A stretch of 64,000 bases of DNA from Theodoxus fluviatilis (taxonomy: Eukaryota > Mollusca > Gastropoda > Cycloneritida > Neritidae). Numbering within the stretch: position 1 is the stretch's first letter; each line of letters begins with the position of its first letter. Shown piece by piece: positions 9,385-56,649 of the stretch. The stretch spans positions 28,501 through 92,500 of the forward strand of contig JAWQFJ010028822.1 of assembly GCA_034096865.1 (NCBI GenBank). Direction: 5' to 3'. Below the pieces are notes generated by a model. That model saw only the letters and a list, made by a program, of their open reading frames with translations. It was not told where the DNA came from and did not search any database. Both the position numbers and the translations under genes were made by a program.

Positions 9385-9486
9385 GGAGGGTGGGTAATAT
9401 TTTAAATACAGTTTCTTTTTTTACATTTCAACCAATCTTTCATCTGGAAGAAGGGTCCCATCAGTTTTTGATAAAAATGTGGGTTA

Positions 9487-10247
9487 TTGTACTGTATGTC
9501 TACAAACAAGTTAAAATTGAATGATGGAAAAACTGAAGCACTTTTTTTCTCTGGATCTGCTGCTGTGAATCCTACTCCTCCTTCTACTATCACAATAGGT
9601 TCTACAGAAATCACTTTCTCAGACAGTGCCAGAAACCTTGGTTTCATCATGGACTCTCACCTCTCAATGAAGCAACACATCGCCAAAGTCTGCCAAACCT
9701 GCTACTACGAGATCAGAAGAATAGGTTCCATTAGAAAGTTTCTTACAGTAGAAGCTACAAAAACCCTAGTAACGTCCTGTATTCTGTCTAGAATAGATTA
9801 TTGCAACTCTCTTCTGATAGGCTGTCCTGACACTACTCTCCAACCTCTGCAGAAAGTCCAGCACTGTGCCGCCCGCCTCATTTACAGAGTGTGTCACATA
9901 CAACCTTGCACTCCTTTCATGATAAATCTCCACTGGTTGCCTGTTCCTGACCGCATCGACTACAAAGCTGCACTCTTCTGCTACTACTTCTTCACTGAAT
10001 CTGCTCCTGCCTACTTTTCTCAACTTATTTTTCGTTACATTCCTGCTCACACACTCCGTTCTTCTGCTGACACCCGACTCCTCATCCCAGGTGACTACAA
10101 TCGCAAATCTCATGGCTTCCGTTCTTCCTCATTCTACAGATTCACTGCCTCACCATGTCAGACACTCCGATTCTATCACCTCCTTCAAGTCTAATCTTAA
10201 AATACATCTTTTCCAGCAATATTTGAAACAAGTTAGAAGAACATGTT
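9487..10247 (+). pseudogene. CR1/L2-type LINE reverse transcriptase, C-terminal fragment, frameshifted
   Basis: The frame 9487-10194 encodes the end of a non-LTR reverse transcriptase and its C-terminal segment. It includes NKLKLNDGKTEALFF, LGFIMDSHLSMKQHI, ILSRIDYCNSLL, LQKVQHCAARLIY, HWLPVPDRIDYKAAL and TRLLIPG. The usual continuation (HSTDSLPHHVRHSDS ... SFKSNLKIHLFQQYL) is in another frame from about 10130, so one frameshift is present. The catalytic RT domain is absent (5' truncation near 9480). The copy is therefore dead. Same strand as the plus-strand transposon, opposite to the host gene. Confidence 0.88.
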
Positions 10248-13668: not shown

Positions 13669-14480
13669 TTAAATCTGGTGGTACTCCAGCAGGCAGTTGC
13701 GGTCATCCTGTAAACACAGGAATGTGTTGCAGGCTACACAGTAAGTTCTTGTTTTCCTTTCTATTTTGAATTTAGTGTAGCACAGCTTACAGTTTCTTCT
13801 GTCTTTAGTTTTGCACATGTTGGGGATGATGCTGTGGATGGTGTATGTGACTGGCTTGTCCGCAACCGGCACATCCGCATCAACATCAAACCCCCCCAGT
13901 TGTCTTATAAGTTCTTCAGTGAAGGCCAGCTGATTATACTTTGCATTCCTTTTCAATTCTTCTACATCTCTGTGTTGTTCTCGCCAGTTTTGAAATAAAA
14001 TGTATGAGTTCACCCTAGCTATATCCAAGAAATGAAAAAAAAGAGTCTTCCAGTATTTGTTTGTTTTCCGCAGCATATTATACTTAGTAAGTAGTTGGTC
14101 ACTTTTATCAACTCCACCCATGTGTTTGTTGTAATCTTTAACAAGAATTGGTTGGGCAACTTCTAGGCTCTGAAAAGTTCCATTTACTTTAGATCTTCTG
14201 TTTGCAACAGAAAAATCATTTGCTGTGTGTAGAGTCGAGATAAAAGAAACGGTTTTATTGTCTTTCCACTGCATTCCTAGGATGTTTCCTTCTCTACACC
14301 ACCTCATTGCACCTCTCTCACTTTTCTTTTCCCATTCTTTTACATTCTTCAGTTTTGCAGGAAATCCCCTCCTATTACACAAAATAGTTCCACATGCTCG
14401 TATTCCTTTTTTCAAGAGATCGATGAACAGATGGACACTTGAATAAAAGTTATCTATGCAACACGCACCTTCGATAATCA
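13669..14480 (-). pseudogene. piggyBac transposase, C-terminal half
   Basis: About 270 residues, including EGACCIDNFYSS (second catalytic Asp of the DDD triad), CNRRGFP, WKDNKTVSFISTLH, MGGVDKSDQL (third catalytic Asp) and WKTLFFHFLDIARVNSYILF. It ends with a Cys-rich finger (CKLCYTKF ... YCVACNTFLC). The first Asp and the N-terminal catalytic half are missing: the frame joins almost directly to the acidic N-terminus upstream, in another frame. Intact family members are roughly 550-600 residues. This copy cannot make an active enzyme. Confidence 0.88.
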
Positions 14481-14605
14481 ATCCCGTCGATGTTTGGATC
14501 CATATTTTCGTCATTGCTTGAAAATGACGATTCATCATCACACCAAACTTCATCATCACTTGAATCATAAGCAATATCATCTTCAGAAGATGATTCTTGG
14601 TCCAT
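14474..14605 (-). pseudogene. piggyBac transposase, N-terminal acidic fragment
   Basis: MDQESSSEDDIAYDSSDDE followed by further acidic residues is typical of the N-terminus of piggyBac-like proteins. It runs out near 14474, where the C-terminal half begins in a different frame, marking the deletion junction. Confidence 0.7.
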
Positions 14606-15720
14606 ATTTGACGATTTTATTGAGCAGAGAAGCAAAACCAGTGACGCTAAAAAATTAAAGATGGCGGTCGGGAAGCAAGACGCTTTGCTGCGCAGTAAAT
14701 AACTATTTTTGCATATTTTCGGAATTAAACTGAAATATATTATAACTTTTTTTGCTTAGCAATGCTTTTTTCTTCAATGATATGTAATTTTTTCAAGAAA
14801 AAAAAATTTAAATTAAATTATAAGTGTTATTGTTATCGACCTTCGGTGGTCGAAATCATGCTTAGAAAACGTCTGAGGGTTAAAGGAAAATATCTGTATT
14901 TGGTCAGATTATATACATGTATATAAAATTAGTTGAGAACTATTAAAAATTGTCATTTTTATTTTTATTTAAGCAACAACAAGCATGTTTACTATCATAT
15001 GATCTAGATGCATAGAAAAGACAAACACTGCAGCATCAATTCTGACGATGCATCCCTCTTACTTTCTCTTGGTCAGATAGTGAGGTACTAATTATCTTTA
15101 TCATCCCACAAGGAAACTTTTATGTCCAACACAACAGAAGCAATTACATATACAATTCATGCAAGAAATATCCAATGCTCAACATTCTGGTAGGATACAA
15201 GTGAGTAAAACAGTAATCTGTAAGTGTGGATGCCCAGAACTGATGCATGCACACAAGCACATTAACACACACAAAAACACATGCAGACATAAGCATGCAC
15301 TAGCATAGTTCCACACCAAGGACTACTAAAGAGAAGGACTTGCAAAGCTTAGATTCAGCGCAGCTAGCGAAGGCCAACGCGATTCGAGCTGGCAGGCAGC
15401 TGAGATCTATTTTTAGCAAAACATCACACGGGTTGCGAGTAGTAATATACTGTAAAAAAATTAATAAATATATTTCGATTATTTTACTCCAAAAGCCCAT
15501 GTACTGTTTCACATTGTTATGAAAGTGTTTCAAATAAAGTTAAATGACACTAAAAGACTCTGTTAAGAGATCACGGTTTCTTCAAGTGTGGACTATTTTG
15601 CAACTCGCATTCGCAAACAAGTTGTTCGATCTACACTGTAATGGCGGCCCGCGAAGTACGTCTGCTCGTAGCAAGTGTTTTGATTGTGTACGTCTGCTCG
15701 TAGCAAGTGTTTTTTTCAGA

Positions 15721-33372: not shown

Positions 33373-34771
33373 ACGCCATATGGGAAAGTTCTGCAGGACA
33401 AGCACATGCATGTTTATTGGCTGGCAATGTGCACAGTGGCTGGGGCTGAGAGGGATGAAATGTGAAAAGTTTTGTTTTTCTAAATAACAACATTCTTCTG
33501 GTATGCATCAAATCCCTATTTACATTCACAACCAAATTGTGACATAATTGATATCACACTACTGAAAGTATTCACGTGCCACAGAAATCAAAAGCATGAA
33601 ATGGTATCAGTAAAGTTAACCCTGGATGAAAATAACACAAATATGGCTATTTAAATTTAGTGAGTATTTACTGTAGGTGCCACAAATTGACTTTCACTGA
33701 TGAAAACAAAATAAGAAGTTGATTTTCTCAGTTATTGTATTTTGCTGTCAACCACTACATATGATTCCAACTTTGTACTTCTGCTGTCACATAAAAAGTG
33801 CGCAAGTAGACTTCAAATGTGATCCTAACCTCTGCATAATAGAGATAACATGATTATTCTATATTAAAATAGATGATGTTGTTAACTGCAATTTAGTTTC
33901 AAAATTCATCTAAAATGTACCAATAATCAGAAACATTATACCAATACTATACATTTTTCTTCCGTATGTTTCAAATGGCATAAATCTATTTCTTACCAGT
34001 ATTGAGGCACATTTGTTGAACAAAGTGGCTGTTTTCACAAAATGGCATCATTTTGAAAATATATATTATCCACATCTAGCATCACCTATGTATTCATTTC
34101 CAACATTGCAAAGAAAAGAAAGTTGAGGGGGGGAATTTGAAGCTGGCTTTGAAACATGAAAAGTAATATCTGTCAGTGACATCACTACATTAAAGATCAT
34201 GACATTTTGATAAAATGGCAAACAACTCTGTCACCATATTTACTAGATGGACTGCCTGCATTGCATGTCCATCTACAAGCACCATATTCTCACTTCCCAC
34301 TCACTGGTCAACAGCATTCTGTGAACCCGAGTCAGTAGTGACTCTGGCACAGTTCGCTATGAATGCGTAATAGACTTGACCCTTTGCAATACAGCATTGA
34401 GCCCAAAATAGCTCGTTCTGGAAACTATTTTTTTCACTTTTTATAGAAATCATTCAGATGTCAAAACTTGTTTCCATTTCAACACAAACACTTTATTTTA
34501 TCGAATAGACGCTCGTTTATTTCCTCAGCAAGCGTAATTTAAGAGTTTAGTGCAAACTAGTCTTAAAAGTACTTTAACAGCATATGTCAGGGAGCAGAGT
34601 GCTATCCCACAAGCCTCTCCTGTGACCTCCTTATGAATATTCTGGACAGATTAGTTCCTTCACATGATATGAACTGTGCTAGAGACTATCCGGCAGGTGA
34701 AGACTTTAGTGGACTAGAATGGGTCAACAGTTCCCTGGAGTTCTGCACGCAACACATAGGCCTACACTCAC
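33373..34771. other. Intron sequence, no gene seen
   Basis: Unique AT-rich DNA between the minisatellite and exon C. 30.8-31.6 and 36.2-36.9 kb are likewise without recognisable features, apart from a GT run at 36535-36560. Confidence 0.55.
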
Positions 34772-36133
34772 CTGGTTTGCTGCATCCTTCTCAGTTCCTG
34801 GAGTGCTCTGGATTCCACGACCCGATGCTGCCCGATCTTTGTCTAGCTGCAAGATCTGCTTCATCTTTGCCGCAGTCACAATCTTGTTGGTGATGTCATC
34901 CTTGGTGAGAGGCCCACTGTTCAGCCTGTGAACCAATTTGACATGTTCCTGGGCAAACCTCCACACTGTGGTGAGGAAATCGCAGCGTGGGCAGCCCCAC
35001 ACGAGCCCAGCCTTGCATTGCTTTGGTACGGAGGAGCTCTGGGAAGGCTTGGAATTCCGGGCTGGGGTGTAGTCTTTCACAGGTTGGGAGGAATCTGCCA
35101 GTGTGGAGTTGACGGCAGGTTGAGCTGCAGGTTTTGAACCATCCACAGGAGTAGCCTCCATTGGAGGTTGAGATGCATCTGAAGTTACTTCAGTGTCAGT
35201 CACAATGGCCTCATGGGTAGATTGGCCGTCATTAACTGGCTCTGGGGTGTGAGTCACGCCAACCTCATGGGTAGGCTGGTTCTCATTAACAGGCTTGGAG
35301 GTGAGGGTGATAGTGGCATCGTGGGTAGACCGGTGGTCATTAACAGGCTTGGGGGTGAGGGTGATGGTGGCATCGTGGGTAGACTGGTTGTTATTGACAG
35401 GCTTGGGGTACTGTCCCACGGTCCTCTCTGTAGATGATGGTTTCCTGCTGTCCTTGCCAGCCAGGCTGGAAACATGCTGGGTATTTGTAGACTGAGAGTT
35501 GCCATCCAAGACCACCACAGAAGAATTGGGGAACATTCTGCCACACAGTCTGCGACGGCCACGAGCGGAACCACCACCACGGGGATAGGCACTCTCGATG
35601 CGCACAATGCTGCAGTCTGCATCGGCACCAGGAGAAGCTTTGCCAGCATCGGCACCAGGAGAAGCTTTGCCAGCATCAACAGTCTCGGGAAAGGTGTCAG
35701 AATCCCTTTTGTCATACTGGAGGAAATCCGACAGTATTGTGCACCATTTGTACTCATGTGCCACCTTCCTGAAATCGTCATGTGCCTTCAAACCATGGCG
35801 GCAAATGTCAACTCTTGAAAATGCCTGGAAACTGCAGTACCTGCATGAAAACCGATGAGTGAGGACATGCTCTTCAAGCTTCTGCTTTTCATCCGTATTA
35901 AATCGGCAGAAAGAACACCAGTAGTAACAGATGCCAATATCAGGAATGATGTCGCCCTTATCAGTTTGGAAAATGGCCTTGCTGGACATGGCACAGACAA
36001 TCTCATGGCGAAACTGGGACAGTCCCTGGTGGATGTCATCCAGGTCCTTCTCCATGAGCAGGCCTAGTGGCTGGAGGGCCTTGCACGGCAGTCCTGGGCT
36101 CATAGGCCTCAAGATGGAGCCGCTGCTACTCAT
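34772..36133 (-). CDS. Zinc-finger gene, large exon C (three C2H2 fingers)
   Basis: The exon is 454 codons, phase 0 at both ends. The acceptor (tgtgttccag) is directly followed by ATG and the donor is GTGAGT. The N-terminal third carries two adjacent C2H2 fingers: WCSFC...HVLTH and SCRYC...HGLKAH, with C-x2-C-x12-H-x3 or x4-H spacing. The middle is Ser/Thr/Pro-rich with an acidic KRDSDTFPE segment, a duplicated AGKASPGAD octapeptide-like unit, and four tandem 18-residue repeats of the type KPVNxxxSTHDATITLT. A third finger, WGCPRC...HVKLVH, lies near the C-terminal end. Because the ATG sits exactly at the acceptor, this may be a first coding exon after a 5' UTR intron. The frame also stays open upstream, so internal use is possible. 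It joins in phase to exon D. Confidence 0.82.
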
Positions 36134-36959
36134 CTGGAACACACGGCAAGGGCAGGTCAATGTATAAGGTACACCTTGGAATCTTGGCAGCATGCACCTA
36201 TTCAGTGCACTCTTCACTTGTTTTTATAAAGATTCATACAGAAATTCTGAGGCAAGATAAGAGAGTAAGCCAACAACATCTAAAAAAACAACCAAATATA
36301 CATGAAAATCCCCTCATAAAAATGTTTCTGTCCTAATGTATGCAGATTTAATACCAGCTTACATTAATTGATAAATAAATCAGGCACAATCACATACAAT
36401 GAAGGTGATCAGCCACACAGATGCATGCTACTAAACTGTTTTGGTATGTATGACCTGATTCAGTAATCCTACCATGCACATCATAATCTCTATACATACA
36501 ATAGGCAATCTGTGTGGGTTGAGTGCATGCATGTGTGTGCGCGTGTGTGTGTGTGTGTGTTACTCATACATTGTACAACCTACAACAATGAAACTAGGCT
36601 TTTTTAAAATGGCAATACGTATAGACGCCCCATCCTGGCCGTCTTTCCTTGCTGACCAGCTAAGGTCTGTACAACTACTAGCTCTCCAGTTTTCTCACTA
36701 CAATCCACTGTTCTAAATTTCCCACCATGTAGGCACCGCAGACAGCTCTGCCCCAAGGCCATCTTCCTTCTTCAGTTGATAGTTGTCTCCGTGATGTCAT
36801 GCATTCTGCAGCCGTCATTCATGGGCCAGATTAGGGCTGATGAGTCTACCCTTAGTGCACACACTTGGAGACAGTGAGAACACTGGAATGATGCTGTTCA
36901 TGTGGTGAATAGCATAGTCTTTCTGTCTTCCCTGGCACTGATTACAGTCTGAACAGCAT

Positions 36960-37690: not shown

Positions 37691-39469
37691 GTCACCTGTC
37701 AAATCCAGTAAACAAACTATGTGTGCACGTCCATGATACTGGCAAAATGGTGGAAAATGCTGGTTGCCCTCACAAAATTATGATTCCTAAAGTCTCAAAA
37801 GCTTCAGATGGGCATGATTTGCGATGATATAGCTTCATGAAATGTTTTTCTAATAGTCTGCGTGTTTATATGTGTCATTTCGGTGCCTTGAGGTTCACAA
37901 AAATGAAATAAAGGCACTGCTTGTGAACAAAATGGTGCCGGGAAGTGTGACATTCGTCGAGTGCAGATTTTGTTCGCTCGAGTTCTTCTTTGAGATGCAT
38001 TCAAAAGGGAAATCTTTGGTGAAAATATGCATTTCCAACAGCATATTTTTTAATCATGCTATTAAAAACCGGGTTTCCAGAAGAAAAGTACCAGTATTGG
38101 CCACTCGAAAAAGAGCAATGCGTTCGTTACTTTGGTTTCGTCGAGCCATGGGAGAAGAAAAAAAATTGAACAACACACCGAATGGTATAATTGCAGAAAA
38201 CCAAGGTCATGATTGTGTTTTATTCATTTCACAATCGAAAGAAATAAAAAGATAATGAACGCACATAAATAATACCCTGTTATAGAGCCTATTTCGGAAG
38301 TCTATTCCGATCGTGTACACCGGTAACTTACGTTTTCTACACGTGTAGCAAATGTATCGCGAGATCATTTCCGCTTTCAACCACACAGGCATGCTTCCCC
38401 TTGTCTTTCGGGCTTGTATACACCGTTTGCGCATGTCTGCTGACTTTGAAACGCTATTTTTGACCAATCAAACGGCTTCGTTTCGGCTCGCTGCAGAAGT
38501 AACTTAACGTCATGCTGCGCACATGGGTTATTGCTTTCGGCGGTTTTCTGATGAATCCGACTCCATCCGACTCATAATCTGGTAAGTAGCAATTTCTAGA
38601 ATAGTTGAAATAATGTTTAAAGGACTAGTGTTGTGAAATAATGCCTATTTTATTGATAATTCACTCAAATCGTGACCACGAGCGTTCTCGGAAATCCATC
38701 GCTCAAGCTGATCGCCATCGCTGTTTTTGTTTCCTTTGTAACTTACACACACTCAATCGTTCATGCTGCTGTCATCATAGCTGCCAAGGTTATCAGAACT
38801 ACTCGATTTTGTAGTTTGATATGGAACATTAAATGTTTATTATCCCTGATATGAAAAACAGCATGCTTTCAATAGCTCAGGCCAGGGTAATCGCGTTCAT
38901 TACAAAGAATCGGCTGTTTCGTTTCCCATGTTGCTTTCGTCATTGTGTTATTATTTTTAGTAAATTTTACCATACCACAACCTGTACACAATGAACTTTA
39001 CTAAACTATAAGTTTTTTCCTTCAAATATACAACTAAATCTTACTCGATAGCCTTTTGGACAAGTTGTATGGTGTGCTTATTTTGATTTCAAGTTTTGTA
39101 AGTTTCAAAGGAAACAATCATTTTGCTTCAGTGTAACTTACAGTATCACTTGTGTCCTTGGAGTGTAAAATGTATGCTCAAGAATTTGCTCAATTTGTTT
39201 TTGAGTCAAGCTTTTGATTCAGATGATATTTTTGCAATGAGCAGCTTGTGTTTACAGAAAATTGAGTTTGTTTTAGAGCTGATAAATAATGTAAGTTACT
39301 TGGAAACTGCTCCTGCAAGCTTGACTTAGAGGCAGGGTTTCAGTACTGCATGCTGTCTCTGTAAATGGCACAGATAGCACTTTATCAGCAGTTATCTCCA
39401 GTGACATATTTACGTATACATTTATACTCCTGTTTTACAGTTTTTCAGTAACCAATCCGAGGTACAAGC

Positions 39470-41914
39470 ATGGATGCTGCACGGCGTACTTCCATGCGAA
39501 TCAGGGAGGTAAAGAGTGCTTCTGGGGTCCCACCCATGCCACAAAGAAAGACACCAGCTCAGGCCAGTAAAGAGTACAGAAAAAGATTAAAGCAAGATCC
39601 TGAAGCCTATGAATTTCACAGAAAGCATGAAAACATTCGCATTAAGCTTTTCATGGACCAGTTAGATGAGGAGAAAAGGGCACAGTACAGGGCGAAGACG
39701 CGTCTTCGTGTCCAGAAGTACAGAGCCAAGCAGAAGGCAGAAGGGTTGGCAAAACCACCAGTGAAGGCCATCACTCGTGCTGCAAAAGAAAAACAGCAAG
39801 CCAAGTGGAAGGAAGACAAAAGGCGCCACCTGGCAAATGAAACGCCCGAGGCCAGAGATCGCAGAAATGCCAGGAGGAGGGAGCTCTATGCCATGAAAAG
39901 CCAACCACAAGGCAAGAATGTGAGGAATGATCCCCCCCCCCCAACTGGACCTTCACCTACTGATGGCGATACAGAGCCTACACCATCAGTTTCTGCTCTA
40001 AGCTCGTCATCATCATCAGGATACAAGACGAAAGCCGCTTTAAGACAGGCAGCATGTCGCGCCAGGAAAGCTCTTCCAAAAGACAGCATCAAGGCTGCAG
40101 AAGTCATTGAGAAACTTGTGGCGAATGCCACTCCGACTAAAAAGAAGGCACTAAAGAGCAAAATGTTCCTTAGCCCAAACTCAAAGAAAAGACTGGACTT
40201 CCACAGCGATGTAGTAACTGGGCTCGCAGAAACCCTGAAGCGACTGAAAAAGAAAAGGTCTAAAGAAGACAACAGGACCAGGATCACCCTAGCACTGGCA
40301 CTGAAGAGAAAATCGAAATATCTGAGCACCAGCCAGCGGTCTGATCTGGGTATAGGCTACAGGTTAGCTGACAAAGTGCAGAAAGGAACCGACCCATTCC
40401 AGCGGAAGGTGAGGAAGGATGCGGTGAGTGCTTCCACAGTTGCGCTGGTGGAGGAGTTTTACCGGCGTGCTGACTTCTCCAGACAGCTTCCTGATGCACG
40501 CGGCACAAAGAGGCGCCGGAATGGCGAGATTGTAGCCCGGCGGGTGATGGAACGGTCAGTCGCTGCCATACATGAAGCCTTCAAGTCTGAACATCCAGAG
40601 TGCACCGTTGGCAAATCTCTCTTTGCTGCCCTCAGGCCGGATGACGTCCTTCCAACAACCAGCTGCAGGAAGAGAGACTGCCTCTGTGAATATTGTGCAA
40701 ATATTGATCTCAAGCTTGAAGCCCTGAGAGTGTTTGCCACAAAAAAGGGGCTGACCTGCACCTTCAAGGATCGTTACGAGGTCTCAAGATCAACGCTGTG
40801 CCCCAAAGGAGAGAGTGGCCAGTATCAACGAGAATGCCTCGATAGGCAGTGCAACTCGTGTGGAACGACAGCTATTGATAATCATCTCCGGCCACTGCTC
40901 GAGTCACACATGCAGGAGACCATCACCTACAAGAAGTGGACACATGTTTTGCGAAACGGGAAGAAGCGCCTGATGCGAATCAAGCGAACAACACTAATCC
41001 CTGACTTCGTGGATGAGATGGTGTCTGACATGGCCCCTTTCTCAAAGCACCTCTTCGATGCATACTGGCAGGGTCGTCAGTACGAGCATGTGTCACGCTG
41101 TCCTGAGAAAGACACAGTGGTGATTTGCGAAGACTACGCAGAGAACTACAAGACCGAGTATCAGGATGAGGCGCAAGGTGCGCATTGGAACTATGAACAA
41201 GTCACCCTCCATGCATCAGTGGCCTCCTACAAGTGCCAGCAAGCAGACTGCAACCTCACTGTCACCGAGTCGGTGGTTTTCGTGAGTGACGACCCGAAAC
41301 ATGACGCACATGCAATTCAGCATTTCCATCACATGCTGATGACCCATCTACAAGGTCAAGATCGACCCCCATTCAAGAAGGCCATTTTCTTCTCGGATGG
41401 CGCTCCAGGTCAATACAAAAACAAGACTTCTTTTATGGACTTGTCATGTGCTGAAGAGGACTTCGGCATCACTGCGGAGCGTCATTTTTTTGGCACAAGA
41501 CACGGCAAAGGTCCCTGTGATAGAGAATTTGGCACCCTCAAGGGCAGCATAGGGCGTCACATCAAAATGAGGGGAGTGGAAATAGACTCGGCCGAAACAT
41601 TCTTTGATTTTGTTGAAGAAAAATATTCTCGACCTGCACCACCAAGAGGGGAGGAGAACCATTGCCACTTTCAGAGGAAATTTTTCTTTGTGAAGAAGGA
41701 GAATGTGCAGCGTGAACGACAACACATGGAAAACCTCAAGCCAATCCCAAACACCAGACAGCAACACAGCATCAGACAAATAAGCAGGGGAGTTGTTGCC
41801 TTCAGGGAGAGATCCTGCTTCTGCGAGGTGTGCCTTGGCAAAGAACAGGGTGAATGCCCCAGTCATTCGCTGACAGGAGACTGGAACGTCTTCTCTCTAC
41901 TGAAAGGCCAACGT
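39470..41914 (+). CDS. Transposase, exon 1 (DDE/D catalytic core)
   Basis: The frame is open for 838 codons to 41986; splicing at a GTGAGT donor after GQR (phase 0) gives 815 codons. The first 130 residues are very basic with repeated KxxRxR units and predicted helices. Two Cys clusters follow, near residue 398 (CRKRDCLCEYC) and residues 444-464, suggesting a zinc-binding insertion. The likely catalytic triad is D555 (CEDYAENY), D643 (FFSDGAPGQYKNK) and D684 or E686 (HGKGPCDREFG), with 88 and about 40 residues between members. A last Cys cluster, CFCEVC, is near residue 781. The DxAENY / SDGxxGQYKN / HGKGPCD pattern recurs in uncharacterised transposon-like proteins of invertebrates, from general recollection. 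No stop or frameshift interrupts it. Start chosen as the first Met of the open frame. Confidence 0.85.
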
Positions 41915-42080
41915 GTGAGTATAATTTTTCATCTCTTGCGAATCAATTCAAGTTTAGATAGATTGACAGGTGTCCATTTCAGCTGAGTCAAAAATAAATT
42001 ATAAAAAAACACACACACACAAAACCTACTATTGAATCAATGCTATGCTTTACTAAGGTCTGATAATCTGTTGCATTCAG

Positions 42081-42329
42081 GTCCGAACACAAATGAATGG
42101 TGACCCCACTGCTGTGGACCAAGGTGACCCCACTGCTGCTGACCAAGACCAAGGTGGGACCCCTGCTGCAGACCAAACTGACCCCATTGCTGCTGACCAA
42201 AACCAAGGTGGGACCCCTGCTGCAGACCAAACTGACCCCACTGCTGCTGACCAAGACCAAGGTGGGACCCCTGCTGCAGACCAAGCTGACCCCACTGCTG
42301 CCGACCATGAATCAGTTGGCATCCCTGTG
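42081..42329 (+). CDS. Transposase, exon 2 (imperfect repeats)
   Basis: The exon is 83 codons between a tgcattcag acceptor and a GTGAGT donor, phase 0 on both sides, in frame with exon 1. It encodes imperfect 21-residue repeats of the type DPTAADQDQGGTPAADQ. Asp, Gln, Ala and Thr dominate. The DNA repeats here have diverged, unlike the identical array in exon 3. Function is unknown; a flexible linker is the simplest view. Splicing is inferred from sites and phase only. Confidence 0.65.
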
Positions 42330-42470
42330 GTGAGTGAATTAACTTTGTGATAGCCCAACCCATTTTTGAAAATCATTATTCTTTCATAAGAAGGATTGTT
42401 AATGGAAGTGTATACTTGTCTTCATGTTTTCAGTTTACAATTAATAACCAAATTTGATATTATGTTGCAG

Positions 42471-42952
42471 ACCCAGCTTCTAGACCAAGGTGGTGTCCCC
42501 ACAGACCAAGGTGGTGTCCCCACAGACCAAGGTGGTGTCCCCACAGACCAAGGTGGTGTCCCCACAGACCAAGGTGGTGTCCCCACAGACCAAGGTGGTG
42601 TCCCCACAGACCAAGGTGGTGTCCCCACAGACCAAGGTGGTGTCCCCACAGACCAAGGTGGTGTCCCCACAGACCAAGGTGGTGTCCCCACAGACCAAGG
42701 TGGTGTCCCCACAGACCAAGGTGGTGTCCCCACAGACCAAGGTGGTGTCCCCACAGACCAAGGTGGTGTCCCCACAGACCAAGGTGGTGTCCCCACAGAC
42801 CAAGGTGGTGTCCCCACAGACCAAGGTGGTGTCCCCACAGACCAAGGTGGTGTCCCCACAGACCAAGGTGGTGTCCCCACAGACCAAGGTGGTGTCCCCA
42901 CAGACCAAGGTGGCACTCGGGCACCAGAGCAACTTGCAGGCATCTCACACAT
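42471..42952 (+). CDS. Transposase, exon 3 (20 identical DQGGVPT repeats)
   Basis: Entered in phase 0 after a tatgttgcag acceptor. After TQLL come twenty tandem heptapeptides DQGGVPT (21 bp each, 42483-42902) and a partial twenty-first, then TRAPEQLAGISHM. The donor GTTAGT is weak but leaves phase 2, exactly what exon 4 needs. All six frames are open across the array because its length is a multiple of three, so coding status rests on phase agreement on both sides. The units are identical at nucleotide level, pointing to recent expansion. Confidence 0.65.
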
Positions 42953-43124
42953 GTTAGTTTCTGCTTCTTTTGGTCTTATTTTTAATACAAGTATCCATGT
43001 GGTTAGAATATCAAATTAATTTGACCCTTGTAGTACCAACATAAACTCTAAAAAAGGTGTTCATTGAAAATATTCCCCTGTTTTTTTCTTGCTTTATGAC
43101 TTTTTTCTTTCTCTATTTCTACAG

Positions 43125-43383
43125 AGCACCTGGGGTTTTCCTTCGGGCCCTGGTCTTGCCAGAAAGTGGGATCAGAGCCAAGGGGAAGGTGTACGTGGCA
43201 GTCGTCCGAAAGGTGCTGGAAGACGGGAAATTGATTGTGGCCTACCTGCGCACCGATGATGCTGGCAAGGGGTATTCTTACCCAGATAATGATGCCGAAT
43301 TCCCCCTGTCACGAAGTGATACTGAAGAAGTCCTTCCTGAACCTCGCTTTGATCGGCGCGGTGGACGCATGTTTTTTGAATAA
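43125..43383 (+). CDS. Transposase, C-terminal exon 4
   Basis: Entered after a tttctacag acceptor with one base completing an ATA codon, then 85 codons and a TAA stop. It encodes a compact beta-rich segment starting APGVFLRALVLPES, with KVYVAVVRKVLEDGKLIVAYLR and a C-terminal RGGRMFFE. The valine-rich VAVV...V.FL pattern resembles the small C-terminal beta domain seen in related transposon proteins; this is recollection, not a search. The stop codon overlaps an AATAAA polyadenylation signal. Together the four exons encode 1144 residues. Confidence 0.72.
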
Positions 43384-43384
43384 A
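43379..43384 (+). promoter_or_regulatory. AATAAA polyadenylation signal overlapping the transposase stop
   Basis: The hexamer AATAAA spans the TAA stop of the transposase gene. A GT-rich stretch (43400-43445) follows at a distance typical of a downstream element. Confidence 0.5.
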
Positions 43385-44770
43385 AAGTGAAATGGTGCAG
43401 TTCTTGTGTGTGGATTTTGGGGGTTTTTTGTTTGGTCTTGTCCTGTTTGTTATGTATTGTGTGTAATCAATGCTTATAGTCCCATAAAGCTGAGTTGAAG
43501 TGGCCAAAAATGACCATCTTTGGTTTGGTTTCCTCGTAACTTACGCAATATCTAGCTGCTGTTTGAAATGTACAATGTGTATTTATAGTGCTAATACATC
43601 AAGGTTATATGATCTGAATCACTTTCCTTATTTACTTTCATATTTATTCAAACTTTTGAAAAATTTGCTATACTTTTTGAACAGCAAAGATTGAAAGGTG
43701 CTTGTTTTGCGTAAGTTACGGTTTCCATGTAAACACAATTTTTATGTCATAATAAATACACAAAAAACTTAGATTTGTTTTCATCAAATGACACATCTGG
43801 GTCATTTGCAAACACTCAAGGTGGAAATAAAGTGCAACTGTCACAAATAAAGACAATAGAGTCAAAAGATGGAAACCATGTAACTTACATCATGGCCGTC
43901 AGTGCACATTTTATATTGATCATTGTGGAAAATCCTCACAAGTTTTTCTGTCTTAAATCACATGATAAGATAGGGTAAGGACATAACTAAACTATATTGG
44001 AAAATTCTGTACTTGGGAGGATATTTAATTTTCCACCTGCCTGTCACACATGCATTTGCCAGTATCATGGACGTGCACATATGTACACTGTTTTTGATGT
44101 TGGTGCTGTTGTTCCTAGAACTAGGGGCGGTGTGCATTCACATTAGAGAGAGAGAGAGGAAGACCCAGTCAATAAGATCAGTGACGGCTGATGCACTCAC
44201 CAGTTGTCAACAGCTCTCACATGGCAAGACATCAAGCTACATGTATCCACAAAGGAATTAAAAGCAACCAAAACTCCCATTCCAAGCTGCCATGGGTGAG
44301 AAGAGGCAAGTCAGAGCAATTTGATGGCAAGACAGTGCAGACAGTATGTGACCATCTCCACCTCCTGCACCCCATCTCACCTTCCTCCACAGCCAGCTAG
44401 GGGAAGCAGAGCTCACACTGTGCCTGCTAGTGCTGGCAATGAGTCACTGTGGGGAAACCATTGGGGCAGAATGTATACAGGCTGTGTGGGGAGGTCAAGG
44501 TTGGAATTATGATGGAGAAGGGAAGGAAAACCAAAACAATGCCACAAAAAGACTGGCCAAGGTTTATGACTTAGGCAGACACAACAAAAGGTTGCTTGAG
44601 TGCATAGTTGCCACAGCAAGGAAAGACTGAGGAGATTTTTGATCTAACTGAATGTACCAAAGCATGGATTGAGAGAGCAGAGATGTCACAGCAAAGCAGT
44701 GATTAGGAGATTACTTAAGAAAACAGACTGGGGCAAAGCACAGTGTGTGACGTTGATAGAAAGGGGACTG

Positions 44771-54759: not shown

Positions 54760-54877
54760 GTGCACAGGCAAACACACATACTAACAGACACAAAAACAGA
54801 TGGACAGACTGACACACAAACAGATGGACAGACTGACACATAGACAGATGGACAAACTAACACAGAGACATGGATAT

Positions 54878-56081
54878 GTGCACGTCCACGATATTGCCTA
54901 ACACTATCAAAAACTGGGGGTCTGGGTAAAGACACTTGAATAAAACTATCTAACACAGTCAGCATGCATATATTTCAAATTTATATGGGTTCTTTAAATG
55001 TTTTTGTAATGTTATGACCAATAGTTTTTATAGTTTTGCTTTGCAGAGATTCACAAAAAAATAATTAAACTCGTACGAAGCGGAAAAATGGCGCCGAAAA
55101 ACGGGACATTTTGCGACGCCACTTTTGAATGCTTGTTATCTTGTGCAAATTCACCTTACAACGTATAGATTGTGTGAAATAATTCAAGTTCAATTATTAA
55201 TTTAGTCATATTTCAGTGGAAAGTCGCCACAAAATAAAAACAGAGGTAGTTCTACCGAAATAAAAAAGACCTATGTGTACGTTACTCTCGTTTCTACCAC
55301 CATTGCTCAGAGGAAAAAAATCGAAACCAAACATGTGTACATAAATGTGTTGAAGAGAAGGTTCAAATTACCTTTCCTTTCATTAGTTTACTATTACAAC
55401 TGCATAGTTTTATTCTTCTTTTGGTATTAACCAATTTCTTGGGACTATTTTGATGTTCAGCGTCGGTTGTTTCCCTGCGTTACTTACGAAAGGTACGCGT
55501 GTACCAAACGTGTTGCTATATTGTTCCGCACTCGAAACGGATACGAAGGAAGCTTTTGTCATCCCGCAGTAAATGAACACGTTTATAGAAGGATACGTCA
55601 TAGTACTCGCGATTTTTGACCAATGAGAAGGCTTCGTTTCCTTCACTTCCTTCTGTTACGTACGAAAATTTGCTACACATGTGCGAAGCTTTCAGTTCGT
55701 TTGATCCGTTCGATCGACCATCTTCATCCAATTTGGGTTAAGTAAGGCATTCTACATTAGTTTTTTATTAATACAATTCAATAGTTTCGTTCATGGGTCA
55801 TGAATAAATACTTTATGACTAGTTTTTATCAACGCCATTCTGGTTTTGGTTTCTGGTGTTTCTTACGAAACTCAATCGTCGCGGAGGAGCTTATCACATC
55901 GATTGATTTGGTCAGAATCACATCATGTTTGTTTTCATAGAACTAATTTGATGTTCCCTCATGCTAGATATCAAAATAATACCTTTTATAATGATATACG
56001 CATGTGATCGTCTCGCTGGTTACAAAGAAACCAAACACAGGTATGTCCCACCTAGTGTTAGGCAATATCGTGGACGTGCAC
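54878..56081. mobile_element. Non-autonomous relative of the 6.36-kb transposon (1.2 kb)
   Basis: Perfect 29-base inverted repeats begin GTGCACGTCCACGATATTGC and end the element at both sides. The flanking ATAT (54874-54877 and 56082-56085) is an exact 4-bp target duplication. The first 14 terminal bases match those of the 37719-44082 element with one change. No coding sequence was recognised. The interior holds TTACTTACGAAA and TTACGTACGAAA (about 55478 and 55656) and other TTACGAAA variants, similar to the GTAACTTACG motif of the large element. Confidence 0.85.
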
Positions 56082-56649
56082 ATATATATGCAAACATAAA
56101 TACACTGACACAAAGATTACTGTTGGATGACTGAGTCACAAAAAGTACAAAATTACACAAGACAAGAGAAGAAAGAAGTTTCAAGGGAAGAGAAAAGTGG
56201 AGGAATGAAAAGTTGGCAAAGGTTTTGATAAGAGACTATGTTGAAGCAGAGAGGGAAATAGGCGAGTTGAAAAATACTCTGAACTTCTGCATTTCACAGA
56301 AAGAAGAGGAGCAGCACAAGTTGAAATGCTGCATTGGAGTGGAGGAGAAAGAGAGATCTGAAAGGCCACTAGTGACGCAGTGCAGGGAGGAGGCAAAGCA
56401 GAATAAAGTTTTAGGGCACAGAGAGAGGAGGAGAGAGTGCTGCCACAAGAGAGGTGTTGAGGAAGGAGGAGGAGAAGGAGGGGGAGGAGGCCGAGACGGG
56501 CAGACCAGGGAGGAAACAGGCGGACTAAGGAAGCAGGCAGTGTGCCAGGAGAAGGGCTAAATATGGCTCCCCTCCCTGCCGCCCTGTGGAGGAGGAAAAC
56601 TGTAAACAGATATGTAAAACAGCTGGCATCCAATCTTGGCCAGAACAAG

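Follow-up and report, generated by a model that had tools for sequence, protein, structure and literature searches.

An apparently autonomous DNA transposon with a DDD transposase and 4-bp target duplications, probably Sola-like, in the snail Theodoxus fluviatilis

The element described here lies in a 64,000-nucleotide stretch of Theodoxus fluviatilis DNA (contig JAWQFJ010028822.1, positions 28,501 to 92,500; hereafter the window, whose own numbering is used). It spans 37723..44078 on the plus strand (6,356 bp), as defined by its ends and by a copy at another site. The observations are that its two ends match, that copies at many independent sites are flanked by 4-bp duplications, that its spliced gene is intact, and that a near-identical copy lies elsewhere in the genome. 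On balance, we regard the element as a DNA transposon that is autonomous, bounded by terminal inverted repeats (TIRs), and equipped with a three-aspartate (DDD) transposase. It most likely belongs to the Sola superfamily (Sola2-like), uses A-N-N-T sites with a 4-bp stagger, and moved recently in this genome.

Ends, flanking duplications, and short copies

The two TIRs are 24 bp each, match perfectly, and start GTGCACGTCC. The left one, GTGCACGTCCATGATACTGGCAAA, occupies 37723..37746 (+) and the right one 44055..44078 (−). With a 21-base end probe and up to three mismatches, four matches were obtained in the window, two of which belong to a second element; 100 shuffles gave a mean of 0.00. The flanks are ATGT (37719..37722) and ATAT (44079..44082), equal in three of four bases. 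Both the matching termini and the 4-bp duplication with one change had been proposed in a sequence-only reading of this DNA, and both hold. A shift by one base would give ends beginning TGTGCAC and a perfect TATG/TATG duplication. A perfect 4-bp match in one or the other of the two frames arises by chance with a probability of 0.01, so the window locus alone could not settle the edges. The second element, however, shows its ATAT/ATAT flanks only if the ends are read from GTGCAC, and 24 copies elsewhere in the genome set the same frame. Therefore, the GTGCAC frame with ATGT/ATAT is right, the termini are GT...AC, and the shifted frame is rejected.

The second element (54878..56081, +) is 1,204 bp long, has 29-bp ends and no long open reading frame (ORF), and is flanked by ATAT at 54874-54877 and 56082-56085. 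Over its left 1.15 kb, it aligns colinearly with the main element's left 1.19 kb (722 of 1,083 aligned bases identical, score 219; maximum of 100 resampled controls, 66). To the right of this homology, the two have only the terminal repeat in common, and the 3′ parts gave a score of 39, below the control maximum of 45. The second element is a non-autonomous, internally deleted relative from a sister subfamily.

Further copies with these termini, which the earlier reading had asked for, were found throughout the assembly (965,456,814 bases, 19,668 contigs). The end pattern GTGCACGTCCAYRATAYTGSC gave 281 forward and 283 reverse exact matches, 564 altogether, and the control gave 0 and 0. Among the matches listed, facing ends lie, e.g., 1,043, 1,204, 2,087, or 4,050 bp apart; many of these pairs span about 1.2 kb, as the second element does.

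A search with the left 582 bp of the element scored 40 places (97 candidates), namely, the window and 39 others at 93-95% identity. We fetched 27 of the 39 (20, then 7 of the remaining 19). For the analysis of duplications, L011 and L012 (right end absent from the fetched stretch) and L017 (N in the right flank) were set aside, leaving 24 copies. Perfect 4-bp duplications flank 20 of them (ATAT 13, ACAT 3, ATGT 3, ATTT 1). The other four are imperfect: L014 (ATGT/ATAT), L019 (AACT/ATAT), L023 (ACGT/ACAT), and L042 (ATGT/ACGT). When the window element is added to these, four of five mismatched duplications differ by one transition. Such mismatches occur although the copies are mostly less than 1% diverged.

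A length of about 1.05 kb was found in 24 copies (L017 included; L013, 1,257 bp, excluded). Their pairwise divergence ranges from 0 to 9.1% (median 0.86%); leaving out L009, L010, and L014, as judged by eye, gives a core set of 21 with a median of 0.76% and a maximum of 1.26%. Compared with the window element, the short copies retain its left ~1 kb with 90-93% of positions identical; in L012, the part retained is only 770 bp. At the right end, 38 bp could be aligned to the window element in three of the 20 copies fetched first and 31 bp in a fourth; the terminal repeat is present in the remaining short copies possessing a right end. The short copies are thus non-autonomous relatives which kept about 1 kb on the left and, on the right, only a few tens of bases at the very end.

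These findings bear on the possibility that a host or domesticated gene was spread by segmental duplication, with no mobile element involved. The gene is spliced and intact, as such a gene would be. But the similarity ends at the element ends, the flanks differ and carry their own duplication in each case, and 564 end matches stand against none in the control. We regard this explanation as very improbable.

The near-palindromic 9-mer GTAASTTAC occurs eight times in the window, seven of them within non-coding parts of the main element (38323..38331, +; further starts at 38738, 39133, 39291, 43536, 43711, and 43880). Among 500 Markov-resampled controls, a single one contained a 9-mer as frequent as this. 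In six short copies examined, it is found at offset 601-603 (6/6) and additionally at 777 (3/6). GTAASTTAC may act as a promoter site or a transposase site. The 3′ sites are missing from the short copies and are therefore probably dispensable in cis.

The gene and its predicted transposase

The gene model has four exons on the plus strand and GT-AG introns throughout (166, 141, and 172 bp), and encodes 1,144 amino acids with one terminal stop. Exon 1 (39470..41914) comprises 815 codons without a stop or frameshift, in line with the multi-exon gene that had been proposed. It encodes a basic helical N-terminus, a seven-cysteine cluster, an RNase H-type core (D555, D643, D684), and a second Cys motif. 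Exon 2 (42081..42329) contributes a linker of 54-bp repeats, and exon 3 (42471..42952) a 21-bp array encoding TDQGGVP units. This array (42482-42913; 20.6 copies, 100% matches) is the identical internal repeat noted before. Exon 4 (43125..43383) encodes a small C-terminal domain; in the sister clade, related domains gave sub-threshold Tudor/chromo-like Pfam matches. A possible 5′ untranslated intron with a GTAAGT donor and a CAG acceptor may lie at 38582..39448 (+), as judged by its splice signals.

D555, D643, and D684: The proposed triad had left the third acid open between D684 and E686. Across 57 aligned proteins, D555 and D643 are conserved in 56 each and D684 in 55. E686 is conserved in only 43 and is rejected as the third acid. 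Because conservation favors D684 over E686, the triad is DDD.

The core is predicted to adopt an RNase H-fold of the integrase/transposase type. A comparison of folds placed retroviral integrases among its nearest neighbors. By sequence, the protein has no relevant similarity to solved structures (PDB), Mos1/mariner transposase and retroviral integrases included, and a search of a viral fold library returned nothing at E ≤ 0.001. Transposases of Chapaev/CMC, hAT, MULE, and other superfamilies gave no Pfam match among the members and do not appear in the fold lists, an absence which excludes nothing. In the literature, no match was found for an HGKG motif together with a transposase.

Differing tandem repeats follow the transposase core in proteins P0003, P0004, P0012, P0020, P0033, and P0042, as in exons 2-3 of the window gene. 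They are at the same position, and many are DQ- or P-rich. The linker behind the core seems tolerant of, or prone to, repeat expansion.

Mechanistically, the spliced gene would yield a transposase which pairs two GTGCACGTCC ends. Its three aspartates are expected to bind metal ions for cutting and joining, and the duplications suggest that joining takes place at ANNT with a 4-bp stagger. The route would be cut-and-paste, and the transposase could also mobilize the short copies in trans.

Gene-bearing copies and a sister lineage

In a protein search of the assembly, 55 of 1,942 candidates were scored and 56 matches listed. Contig C8398 carries a second gene-bearing copy, which is 100% identical to the window protein over residues 196-814; the contig breaks off within this copy, and the left end and residues 1-195 lie beyond it. 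Over 3,915 aligned bp, it differs from the window element by seven mismatches and 106 gap columns. As the right flank is ATGT followed by sequence unlike that of the window, the copy is a separate insertion and no allele. Seven differences in 3,915 bp between two gene-bearing copies support the earlier claim of recent activity. The identical array, listed in the earlier reading among its observations, does not serve as evidence of age. Of the gap columns, 105 correspond to five array units by which the C8398 copy is shorter; because near-identical copies differ in this way, the array is no clock and was discarded as an age marker. Two other matches are a relative on C9948, 58% identical and without stops, and, on C4516, a decayed copy interrupted by stops and frame breaks.

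Twelve equal-scoring places at 33% identity form a sister lineage (contigs C1020, C3244, C3325, C4642, C5449, C6734, C13901, C15063, C16553, C16726, C18716, and C926). Eleven have an open frame of 1,033 amino acids and C3325 one of 1,001. The borders were examined at two of the twelve places (L038-L041). Both elements there are 6,504 bp long, start GGGTCGTTCTCAGGAACATGGGTCAAA, and have one mismatch between the two ends. The sister-lineage ends, starting GGGTCGTTCTC, are unrelated to those of the window element. The duplications are ATCT/ATCT and ATAT/ATAT, both perfect; hence, two lineages with unrelated ends have 4-bp A..T duplications in common. The comparison of the two sister elements covered their left and right stretches. 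The left 2,167 bp show one difference, located in the duplication beside the element, and the right 1,428 bp none. The sister lineage is a very recent burst.

Superfamily assignment and relatives

Sola transposases are described as DDD enzymes making 4-bp duplications, in elements mostly of 2-9 kb with TIRs of 11-1,124 bp (PMC10741241). The window element resembles Sola, and Sola2 in particular, in its DDD acids, its 4-bp A..T duplications, ends of a few tens of bp, a length of about 6 kb, and the occurrence of lineages with unrelated termini. The TIR (24 bp) and the element (6,356 bp) lie within the published ranges, the two bordered sister elements add perfect duplications to those of the 20 short copies, and the DDD triad is indicated by conservation and the predicted fold. 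The sequence-only reading had left the superfamily uncertain; the triad and the A..T duplications narrow the choice toward Sola, although doubt stays. Amoebozoan Sola2 elements, in which Fanzor genes are present, have AWWT duplications (PMC3627910); here, ATAT and ATTT account for 14 of the 20 perfect duplications, and the six with ACAT or ATGT fall outside AWWT. The comparison covered described features of the elements, and the assignment is accordingly a probable one.

Several points weigh against Sola and would fit a separate, undescribed eukaryotic superfamily of DDD transposases, distinct from Sola and likewise making 4-bp ANNT duplications. In a mollusc survey, Sola is reported from bivalves only (PMC10294476). 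No Pfam transposase domain was detected in the members scanned, and their NCBIfam scan gave nothing relevant. A divergent-profile search returned 651 relatives; among the 120 matches listed, none is named a transposase. The anatomy, with its seven-cysteine cluster, repeat linker, and C-terminal domain, is also distinctive. On the other side, the 4-bp duplications, the DDD triad, and the TIR and element lengths of Sola were all found. Many Repbase groups are not known to be represented in Pfam or NCBIfam, which we likewise count against a new superfamily. We therefore treat it as possible but doubtful. It is no more than tentatively that we sketch its proteins as having a seven-cysteine cluster, an integrase-like core, a second Cys motif, a repeat-expanded linker, and a small C-terminal domain. 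Equally tentative would be its ANNT insertion, its commonness in marine invertebrates, and the presence in one genome of at least two lineages whose copies are near-identical.

A Ginger-type element, with a Gypsy-integrase-like transposase and 4-bp duplications, is very improbable. AT-rich 4-bp duplications as in Ginger2 (PMC2836005) and an integrase-like fold, with retroviral integrases among the nearest, are points of likeness. However, Ginger1 and Ginger2 termini are TGTNR (PMC2836005), whereas the ends here begin GTGCAC, and the integrase (rve) Pfam family was not matched by any of 57 members up to an E value of 0.1. Kolobok makes TTAA duplications and has 5′-RR ... YY-3′ termini, and piggyBac makes TTAA duplications (PMC9587614). 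The A..T duplications do not fit either of them, and the GT...AC termini do not fit Kolobok. The mariner duplication is TA, of 2 bp (PMC10741241), and not 4 bp as here.

Relatives of the window protein are common in marine invertebrates, unnamed, and without a Pfam transposase domain. Near ones include a Batillaria protein (66% over 22% of the query) and a Littorina protein (51%). Searches of viral contigs and genome contigs for viral or prokaryotic carriage found neither relatives nor the end pattern. Among the relatives, P0006 and P0010 have a C-terminal OTU-like protease domain; such a domain is reported in Ginger1 elements (PMC2836005). Two further relatives, P0162 and P0170, are assigned to a bacterial metagenome bin (Sedimenticola) that probably contains animal DNA.

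As for the surroundings, the element had been placed in an intron of an opposite-strand zinc-finger gene. This could not be upheld: the ORF at 34727-36223 (−; 499 codons) has three C2H2-like patterns and only sub-threshold Pfam C2H2 matches (best E 0.057). A piggyBac-type transposase fragment lies at 13672-14616 (−; PF13843, E 1.2e-27). By eye, the ORF at 9475-10191 (+) resembles a LINE reverse-transcriptase fragment; the Pfam scan gave no match for it. An Rfam scan of the window had no match.

A published activity test of this unannotated DDD group was not found in a literature search that covered few subscription papers. With an intact gene, defined ends, a known insertion product, and many non-autonomous relatives, the window element provides the material for such a test. 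Turned into a protein profile, its protein would also allow a large set of "uncharacterized" invertebrate proteins to be labeled as transposases.
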